Of a stretch of DNA of 64,000 nt, positions 11,199 to 33,288 are shown piece after piece. A model generated the notes under the pieces. That model worked only from the letters and a program-made list of their open reading frames with translations, was not told the DNA's origin and searched no databases. Position 1 is the stretch's first letter, and each line of letters opens with the position of its first letter. Source of the DNA: an uncultured Arthrobacter sp. (GTDB taxonomy: Bacteria; Actinomycetota; Actinomycetes; Actinomycetales; Micrococcaceae); assembly GCF_902805515.1 (NCBI RefSeq), contig NZ_CADCTE010000001.1:1-64000 (forward strand), in the 5' to 3' direction. The position numbers and the translations under genes are program-made.

Positions 11199-11219
11199 AT
11201 TTCATATGCCTTTGACCTG

Positions 11220-11420
11220 CAGCGGGAGAGTCCTGCCGCGAATATCCACTCGGCAGGCGCCGTAGGAGCAAATCCTCCCCAGGAATCTCTCAGGCCCAGT
11301 ACCGCTGCGGTTAGGCAACTCTGGAAAGCAGCGCACCGGCCCCGAGGGCAGGCAGCGCTCACCGAAGGTGCAAGCAGGCACGGAGCCCTGCGGAAACTCT
11401 CAGGTCCAAGACACAGAGCG
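11220..11420 (+). ncRNA. Tandem glycine riboswitch controlling gcvP-gcvT-sdaA
   Basis: Two glycine aptamers are visible in series. The first (about 11220-11310) has CGGGAGAG, then GGCGCCGTAGGAGCAA and AATCTCTCAGGCCC. The second (about 11315-11420) has AACTCTGGAAAGC, then CACCGAAGGTGCAAGC and AAACTCTCAGGTCC. Both show the conserved aptamer cores, with a short linker as in two-aptamer cooperative switches. It sits 54 bp before the gcvP start. By family behaviour, glycine binding turns on the downstream cleavage genes. Confidence 0.93.
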
Positions 11421-31303: not shown

Positions 31304-31326
31304 TTCCGCCTGTCCAGCAGTACACC

Positions 31327-31358
31327 CAAGGGACTCCCGCCACGGCGGGGGTCCCTTG
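31327..31358 (+). terminator. Terminator after rplI
   Basis: CAAGGGACTCCCGCC (31327-31341) pairs with GGCGGGGGTCCCTTG (31344-31358) with one G-T pair and a 2-nt gap; the top of the stem probably opens into the loop. It ends the rpsF-rplI operon. Confidence 0.85.
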
Positions 31359-31578
31359 TGGTTAACCGCCGGTTGCGCTCTCCACCGGTGCGTCCGCGCG
31401 TCCCGGAGGTATGCGTACTCCGGAATCGATGGTCCCGCCGCAGGAGGGCCCTCCATCCAGCCCCGGCTATTGATCCTCATCACAGCCCCGGGCAACCGCA
31501 CAGGGCCCTAGAGGTGCCATGCAGGAACCCGGAAGGTGCCTTTGGCGACCTCCCAAGCGGGGATGTCAACATGCAACC

Positions 31579-31749
31579 TGTGGATGAAGGTTCCGGGGAA
31601 ATTAGTTTTCCTCCACAGGCACTGGATAAAGTCTGCCCACGTCAGAGGCGGTTTGGTGGGAAAAATAGTTTGTTGTCCACAGGCTTTTCCACATCCTGTG
31701 CACAAGACACGCCGCGGAGTCCACAGGTAATCCACAGGGCCTGTGGGGA
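31579..31749. promoter_or_regulatory. Cluster of DnaA-box-like sites before dnaB
   Basis: The 608-bp gap between rplI and dnaB holds no convincing gene but at least seven 9-mers close to the DnaA box TTRTCCACA: 31579-31587 (minus, TCATCCACA), 31609-31617 (TCCTCCACA), 31673-31681 (TTGTCCACA, perfect), 31685-31693 (TTTTCCACA), 31697-31705 (minus, TTGTGCACA), 31717-31725 (GAGTCCACA) and 31728-31736 (TAATCCACA); a poorer one ends at 31749. Five lie within 64 bp. DnaA binding would couple dnaB transcription to replication state, or titrate DnaA. It lies about 160 bp before the dnaB start. Confidence 0.65.
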
Positions 31750-31911
31750 GCGCGCTTGGTGCCGTGCCCGGCGGCGGCTAGCGTTGCGGAGGATCCCTCA
31801 CGAATGGGAGTGCCGGGTGATACATCTTCAGTAACCGACCCCGGCCCAGCCGGTCAGCCAGGGGGCTGGCAGGCTGTCGAGGGGAGAGCTTAACGGAAGA
31901 AGGCGGCGCCC

Positions 31912-33288
31912 GTGTCCTTGGCACATGCAGACTCATCACAGGACACCCGGTCGCCGGAATTCGCCCGGACCCCTCCCCAGGACCTGGTGGCCGAGCAGTC
32001 GGTGCTTGGCGGCATGATGCTCTCCAAGGACGCCATCGCAGACTGCGTCGAGGTGCTCCGCGGCATCGACTTCTACCGGCCCGCCCACGAGAGCATCTAC
32101 GAGGCGATTATCGACCTCTACGGCCGGGGCGAGCCGGCGGATGCCGTGACCGTCTCTGACGAGCTCACTAAGCGCGGCGAGATCTCCCGCATCGGCGGGC
32201 CCGCCTACCTTCACACCCTCATCCAGTCGGTTCCCACGGCCGCCAACGCCGGGTTCTACGCCGAGATCGTGCGGGAGCGGGCGGTCCTGCGCCGCCTCGT
32301 CGATGCCGGTACCAAAATCGTCCAGCTCGGCTACTCCAATGACGGAGAGGTCGACGACATCGTCAACGCAGCCCAGGCGGAAGTGTACGCCGTGGCTGAG
32401 CGGCGGACGGCCGAGGACTACGTCGCCCTCAAGGACATCATCGAGGGCACCGTCGACGAGATCGAATCCGCCGGGCACCGCGGGGAGGGCATGACGGGTG
32501 TGCCCACCGGCTTCTATGAACTCGACGAACTCACCCAGGGCCTCCACGGCGGCCAGATGATCGTCGTCGCTGCGCGTCCGGCTATGGGTAAGTCGACCTT
32601 CGCGCTCGACTGGGCGCGCTCGGCGGCCATCAAGCACAACCTGACAACGGTCTTCTTCTCCCTCGAAATGGGGCGCAATGAGATCGCGATGCGCCTGCTC
32701 TCCGCGGAGGCGACCATCGGCCTCCAGGACCTGCGCAAGGGAACCATCAAGGACGAACAGTGGGGCAAGATCGCCACCACCATGGGCCGCATGAACGACG
32801 CGCCGCTGTTCATCGACGACAGCCCCAATATGTCCCTGATGGAAATCCGCGCGAAGTGCCGGCGCCTGAAGCAGCGGCACGACCTCAAGCTCGTGGTCCT
32901 CGACTACCTCCAGCTGATGTCCTCGGGGAAGCGGGTCGAATCACGCCAGCAGGAGGTCTCGGAGTTCTCCCGTGCGCTCAAACTGCTGGCCAAGGAGCTC
33001 AATGTCCCGGTGGTGGCCCTGTCCCAGCTGAACCGTGGCTCGGAGCAGCGGACTGACAAACGCCCCCAGGTCTCGGACCTTCGCGAATCCGGCTCGATCG
33101 AGCAGGACGCCGACATGGTGATCCTGCTTCACCGCGACGACGTGTACGACAAGGAATCGCCCCGGGCCGGCGAGGCCGACGTCATTGTGGCCAAGCACCG
33201 TAATGGCCCCACGAAGACGATTGTGGTCGGCTTCCAGGGCCATTACTCGCGCTTCAACAATATGGCGGCGGACGGCGGAGGTTTCTAG
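31912..33288 (+). CDS. dnaB: Replicative DNA helicase DnaB
   Basis: A 458-aa hexameric helicase that unwinds DNA at the fork. The N-terminal domain begins PQDLVAEQSVLGGMMLSKDAI, and the RecA-like domain has Walker A in ARPAMGKSTFALDW near residue 223, Walker B VVLDYLQLMSS near 330 and the arginine-finger segment LSQLNRGSEQRTDKRP near 370. There is no intein, though many actinobacterial dnaB genes have one. GTG 31912 has a weak upstream site (GAAGAAGG). The DnaA-box-like cluster lies in its upstream region. Confidence 0.97.
   Translation: MSLAHADSSQDTRSPEFARTPPQDLVAEQSVLGGMMLSKDAIADCVEVLRGIDFYRPAHESIYEAIIDLYGRGEPADAVTVSDELTKRGEISRIGGPAYLHTLIQSVPTAANAGFYAEIVRERAVLRRLVDAGTKIVQLGYSNDGEVDDIVNAAQAEVYAVAERRTAEDYVALKDIIEGTVDEIESAGHRGEGMTGVPTGFYELDELTQGLHGGQMIVVAARPAMGKSTFALDWARSAAIKHNLTTVFFSLEMGRNEIAMRLLSAEATIGLQDLRKGTIKDEQWGKIATTMGRMNDAPLFIDDSPNMSLMEIRAKCRRLKQRHDLKLVVLDYLQLMSSGKRVESRQQEVSEFSRALKLLAKELNVPVVALSQLNRGSEQRTDKRPQVSDLRESGSIEQDADMVILLHRDDVYDKESPRAGEADVIVAKHRNGPTKTIVVGFQGHYSRFNNMAADGGGF

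Follow-up and report, generated by a model that had tools for sequence, protein, structure and literature searches.

A helix-phased DnaA-box array in the gap upstream of dnaB of an uncultured Arthrobacter and its probable role in control of the helicase gene

Introduction

The gap between rplI and dnaB of an uncultured Arthrobacter sp. holds a dense cluster of DnaA-box-like sites, which raises the question of whether the initiator protein DnaA controls the helicase gene from these sites, is titrated by them as at datA, or uses them as a secondary origin element. These three functions were put forward in a first-pass annotation of the window, which is the whole stretch of DNA analysed here (64,000 nucleotides of contig C1). 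The draft assembly totals 3.74 Mb, split over 207 contigs. Clusters matter because single boxes bind DnaA weakly or not at all in the actinobacteria concerned: the available part of PMC4285127 gives TTGTCCACA for Mycobacterium tuberculosis and Streptomyces coelicolor in a table of high-affinity boxes, and reports that a single box is unbound by M. tuberculosis DnaA and weakly bound by S. coelicolor DnaA.

The box array and its setting

The 608-bp gap from rplI to dnaB includes ten matches to TTRTCCACA at ≤2 mismatches, on both strands of positions 31560-31760, where at least seven in about 160 bp had been claimed; five of the ten have ≤1 mismatch (Table 1). The sole perfect box of this interval is TTGTCCACA, and exactly 64 bp (31673-31736) hold the boxes at 31673, 31685, 31696/31697, 31717 and 31728. 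Both the single perfect box and the packing of five boxes into 64 bp, as first described, were reproduced on recounting. The sites 31696 (+) and 31697 (-) form one near-palindrome, scored once per strand. Two conserved elements inside the array that are not boxes, GTCAG and AAGACACGCCGC, may be sites of another protein.

The gap had been judged to lack a convincing gene, in agreement with its three open reading frames (64-158 aa), none of which matches a Pfam family at E ≤ 1; a hidden gene is rejected on this basis. A known RNA element is likewise rejected, the only Rfam entry in the window being a glycine riboswitch at 11213-11314 (+; 61.9 bits). The strong hairpin that follows rplI is not among the terminators of a terminator scan. 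It is perhaps a transcription end that parts dnaB from the ribosomal operon, and fits a separate dnaB transcript. The start region of dnaB is conserved in alignments. Inteins in dnaB are suggested for many genomes of the class and phylum, where the match breaks near query residues 211-219 and stops near 385 while the open frames are long.

Table 1. Features of the rplI-dnaB region (window coordinates)
Feature	Position	Strand	Basis
rplI, 50S ribosomal protein L9	30854..31303	+	NCBIfam TIGR00158, 129.8 bits, cut-off 58.6
Strong hairpin after rplI	31324..31362	+	Fold -35.4 kcal/mol, z -4.85; without clear T-run
DnaA box TCATCCACA, 1 mismatch	31579..31587	-	Motif scan; recurs in relatives
Weak DnaA box TCCTCCACA, 2 mismatches, 64 bp before perfect box	31609..31617	+	Motif scan
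Weak DnaA-box-like site TTATCCAGT, 2 mismatches	31621..31629	-	Motif scan
Conserved non-box element GTCAG	31641..31645	+	gtCA conserved in family alignment
Perfect DnaA box TTGTCCACA	31673..31681	+	Motif scan
DnaA box TTTTCCACA, 1 mismatch	31685..31693	+	Motif scan
DnaA box TTGTGCACA, 1 mismatch, then AAGACACGCCGC	31697..31705	-	Motif scan, family alignment
Conserved non-box element AAGACACGCCGC, after near-palindromic box	31704-31715		Family alignment
Weak DnaA box GAGTCCACA, 2 mismatches	31717..31725	+	Motif scan
DnaA box TAATCCACA, 1 mismatch, -35 exactly 28 bp on	31728..31736	+	Motif scan, geometry counts
Candidate dnaB promoter TTGGTG - 17 bp - TAGCGT	31756..31784	+	Family alignment
dnaB, replicative DNA helicase, start GTG	31912..33288	+	TIGR00665, 554.1 bits, cut-off 385.25

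Box density against chance and within the genome

Dinucleotide-preserving shuffles of 31560-31760 predict 0.14 sites at ≤1 mismatch and 1.32 at ≤2 mismatches; the observed 5 and 10 were each attained in 0 of 3,000 shuffles. Elsewhere in the window, every 200-bp stretch holds at most two sites at ≤1 mismatch. A chance or compositional artefact might be suspected from the shortness of the consensus and the commonness of sites at ≤2 mismatches (164 across the window). This explanation is contradicted by the shuffles, the remaining genome stretches and the relatives, and is ruled out by the conservation and phase described below, leaving it a negligible probability.

Genome-wide, there are 515 sites at ≤1 mismatch (394 for the reversed motif), and 28 sites are perfect. 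Box density was ranked in a non-random sample of 455.5 kb, composed of the window and 20 stretches from contigs with known sites, the dnaA contig included. Five 200-bp stretches of this sample have at least five boxes at ≤1 mismatch, the remainder having at most two each, and the reversed motif gives no stretch with two sites. The dnaB array (five boxes) is one of these five, together with stretches directly upstream of dnaA (seven boxes), on the opposite side of dnaA (five boxes; the putative oriC), between dehydrogenase and rhomboid genes (six boxes) and in a tandem repeat on contig C66 (five boxes). The first-pass annotation had allowed that the density might prove ordinary for this genome; it stands out in the shuffles and in the 455.5-kb sample alike. 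Direct TCCACA pairs within 36 bp number 20 genome-wide, three of them in the dnaB array, compared to 15 for a reversed control pattern, and a genome-wide search for convergent TCCACA pairs found none in the array.

Arrays of this density are carried by few oriC-proximal stretches, also in the rankings of two relatives. Within 400 kb around dnaA of a same-genus genome (G178), the dnaB array comes first (six boxes, none perfect), and in a Streptomyces-like genome (G023) the dnaB array (four boxes) ranks after two dnaA-side stretches (seven and six) and another cluster (five).

Two of the dense stretches are described here in their own right. The rhomboid-side cluster (G000:C144:68923-69110; L084:2767-2954) has six boxes, four of them perfect, lies between the 3' ends of the dehydrogenase and rhomboid genes, adjoins a cyclophilin gene and is about 14 kb from oriC. 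A survey of 30 class loci, drawn from 74 genomes with a match, finds at least three boxes past the rhomboid 3' end in 12 of 30 and before the rhomboid 5' end in 0 of 30. From gene order, we take this cluster to be a possible counterpart of the M. tuberculosis Rv0010c-Rv0011c DnaA site. The C66 repeat (G000:C66:56990-57062; L085:10991-11062) is made up of five repeats, each about 16 bp long; perfect TTATCCACA is found in four of them and TTATCCCCA in one. Downstream of it lie a phosphoribosyltransferase gene (PF00156) and, judged by eye, a gene resembling hpf.

The dense boxes on both strands, and two short AT tracts beside them (31599-31609 and 31661-31675), would suit a secondary or relic replication origin. 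Against this reading, GC content per 50 bp does not drop below 0.42 in the gap but reaches 0.30 beside dnaA of the same genome, and no lasting GC-skew switch is found near 31.6 kb, where cumulative skew falls before the array, rises slightly at 34-38 kb and falls again. In addition, dnaA has its own clusters on contig C144. With no AT-rich stretch like that of dnaA and no lasting skew switch, the secondary origin is rejected as highly improbable, and this part of the earlier proposal falls.

Conservation among relatives

Judged by motif matches, the array is conserved in many actinobacteria and in a fixed geometry. A 250-bp stretch with at least three boxes is present in the 600 bp that precede the dnaB match at 87 of 118 class loci; these counts are not independent events, as the loci are related by descent. 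At least three boxes are reached at one of the 118 loci in the far control (700-1,500 bp upstream), which is short or empty at the few loci with less than 1,500 bp upstream, and at none of them with the reversed motif. The 118 loci comprise 59 from homology-search loci and 59 that were fetched, 54 being of the own family and 64 other; a duplicate (L168, of L006) was dropped. Seven of 61 family genomes were left out as having no dnaB match at E ≤ 1e-150, and outside the family 64 of 113 class genomes were used and 49 left out. In a set of 80 named loci, which overlaps the first in some genomes, at least three boxes are found in 68 (far control, 0 of 80), including Arthrobacter (10/10), Streptomyces (32/32) and Microbacterium (9/10). 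Thus, the absence from relatives that had been considered in the first description is not borne out in either set. The window DnaB is closest among these 80 to that of Arthrobacter echini (98% identity), the nearest records having possibly been left out.

The array is not universal. Fewer than three boxes are found at 12 of the 80 named loci, including Nesterenkonia (0 boxes, 2/2 loci), Rothia (1), Sediminivirga (0), Brachybacterium (0), Modestobacter (0) and Blastococcus. Within the own family, at least four boxes occur at 48 of 54 loci and 0-1 boxes at five of 54; in genera g121 (2/2 loci), g130 (2/2) and g124 (1/2) the array is gone or unrecognisable. None of the 22 usable loci from other classes reaches three boxes (23 such loci were counted separately, one being too short).

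In an alignment of four genomes of the clade, identical columns make up 54% of 31560-31640 and 61% of 31640-31745. The share is only 36% over the promoter and leader and 16-23% in the poorly aligned part upstream. The array also keeps its place relative to dnaB. At class loci that show rplI and have at least three boxes, the interval from the end of the rplI match to the dnaB match varies from 435 to 1,390 bp, whereas the array lies no more than about 600 bp from dnaB, also where rplI is out of view. Promoter control is favoured because the array is tied to dnaB rather than to rplI.

Helical phase and promoter geometry

Same-strand box distances cluster at 11-12, 21, 32, 43-45, 55-56, 64-66 and 76 bp, with 87 bp in one family. 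The 64-bp step from 31609 to 31673 has its like in the 64-66 bp spacing seen again between stricter boxes of several families. Scoring every spacing only once in each family gives a best-fitting period of 10.9 bp (R 0.595, 134 family-spacing pairs), equalled by 0 of 2,000 uniform random sets; with the own family left out, R is 0.76 at 11.0 bp (81 pairs; 0 of 1,000 random sets). The steps of about 11 bp therefore place the boxes on one face of the helix.

A generic sigma-70 scan reports no promoter in the gap, and the candidate dnaB promoter is taken from the family alignment. The pattern TT[GT]..16-18..TA...T, drawn up after that alignment was seen, follows the last box at 54 of 89 loci, compared to 0.6 expected from random upstream segments. 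A count over 196 distinct loci, which took every promoter-like match with the boxes disregarded, finds a forward box exactly 28 bp before the promoter-like -35 at 81 loci (86 if 27-29 bp is allowed). A reverse box precedes the -35 by exactly 14 bp at 59 loci (62 for 13-15 bp), an arrangement seen in many relatives; the median number of loci per offset is 0. The 27-29-bp class includes seven anonymous families and nine named genera, and the window conforms (box at 31728, -35 at 31756). No forward box lies 27-29 bp before a pattern match at the other 110 of 196 loci.

The same geometry could permit DnaA to repress dnaB from the array, a reading that gains some plausibility from the autoregulation of dnaA by its product in several species, Streptomyces lividans included (according to the accessible part of PMC8203912). 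The boxes, however, are upstream of the -35 and not across it (31728-31736 versus 31756). Furthermore, dnaB is under-expressed in M. tuberculosis with a DnaA mutant that binds less upstream of dnaB (one mutant protein; available sections of PMC7738170). Repression is thus considered unlikely.

Position on the chromosome

In the genome under study, dnaB (C1) and dnaA (C144) are on separate contigs. Among relatives, 35 genomes have a dnaA match and 31 of them allowed the distance between the two genes to be computed, with contigs assumed circular; it is 21.9-94.6 kb in all 31 (65.8 kb in the same-genus G178). Such proximity to the origin, together with the many boxes, is in keeping with a DnaA sink of the type seen in Streptomyces and B. 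subtilis clusters and E. coli datA, for which the location at dnaB would be incidental. DnaA would be bound soon after fork passage and re-initiation restrained, an action compatible with promoter control; clusters near oriC are stated to keep initiation from occurring at the wrong time in B. subtilis and S. coelicolor (PMC4585315 and PMC5742627, as far as their accessible text goes). Position alone cannot tell promoter control from a sink, because all 31 genomes show dnaB near dnaA. Other evidence bears on the choice: a sink requires no fixed distance to a promoter, yet the boxes concentrate 28 and 14 bp before the -35; the array stays with dnaB, not rplI; and only one box is perfect. A sink as the main function is possible, if somewhat doubtful, and the 28-bp box-to-(-35) spacing favours a DnaA-controlled dnaB promoter over both a second origin and a function as a sink alone.

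A proposed role in dnaB expression

The cluster is probably a DnaA-responsive control region of dnaB, with an activating role predicted from the arrangement of its sites. Of the functions first offered, helicase-gene control is the one strengthened here, by conservation, geometry and a mycobacterial counterpart. We infer that DnaA of this species binds the array, activates dnaB and so couples helicase supply to initiator activity. Binding would be cooperative, over the five boxes with ≤1 mismatch and several weaker ones, and DnaA would be aligned on one helix face at intervals of about 11 bp. The boxes closest to the promoter would seat DnaA just upstream of the -35, where it could touch RNA polymerase. 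Activators commonly touch RNA polymerase from such a position. Incidentally, the array may sequester DnaA as well, since the locus is oriC-proximal in relatives and, hence, duplicated early.

A broader proposal, made tentatively and with less assurance than the control of dnaB itself, is that the array represents an ancient module of the Actinomycetes, in which a DnaA filament, in phase with the helix and seated at a set distance from the -35, makes the initiator a direct activator of the helicase gene. In this module one box would precede the -35 by 14 bp and another by 28 bp, with others in steps of about 11 bp, and at each initiation the supply of helicase would be set by initiator activity. 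Should this hold, one protein would both open the origin and determine how much helicase is available for loading there, by a promoter design common to Arthrobacter and Streptomyces. The link between initiation and helicase supply would be testable, with box positions that are defined relative to the -35 (14 and 28 bp upstream).

Comparison with known systems

A DnaA site upstream of dnaB is of a kind already known, and the array belongs to this kind because mycobacterial, Caulobacter and cluster precedents are published. A literature search did not find the box-to-promoter geometry, the 11-bp phase or the class-wide conservation of the dnaB array in print.

The array resembles E. coli datA and the B. 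subtilis clusters as a non-origin cluster of DnaA boxes. It differs in that these clusters, in the accessible portions of PMC4585315 and PMC5742627, are not described as tied to dnaB. The action of datA is IHF-dependent. The S. coelicolor clusters are cited, like datA, for repressing untimely initiation (same portions of PMC4585315 and PMC5742627). The likeness to S. coelicolor is that of oriC-proximal DnaA-box clusters in an actinomycete. These S. coelicolor clusters were reportedly described by Smulczyk-Krawczyszyn in 2006 (said to be J Bacteriol 188:6184), with the names H69, H24 and D78.

In Caulobacter crescentus, dnaB is in the DnaA regulon, its transcription is DnaA-dependent and predicted boxes are found upstream (Hottes 2005, cited in the accessible part of PMC8203912). 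This alphaproteobacterium is likened to Arthrobacter by box location, not arrangement.

The mycobacteria provide a counterpart at the level of gene context within the class, the site being upstream of dnaB. According to the available sections of PMC7738170, M. tuberculosis DnaA pulls down five regions, Rv0057 upstream of dnaB among them, and ChIP-seq of M. smegmatis finds the homologues of the same five regions bound by DnaA. The mycobacterial oriC and rpmH-dnaA sites of that study correspond to the Arthrobacter clusters that flank dnaA. By contrast, DnaA binding is measured in mycobacteria (in vitro for M. tuberculosis, in vivo for M. smegmatis) and inferred for Arthrobacter, while phase and box-to-promoter geometry were not found described for the mycobacterial site in those sections of PMC7738170. 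The Arthrobacter array shares three marks of the mycobacterial type: it is directly upstream of dnaB, has boxes beyond chance and is conserved in relatives.
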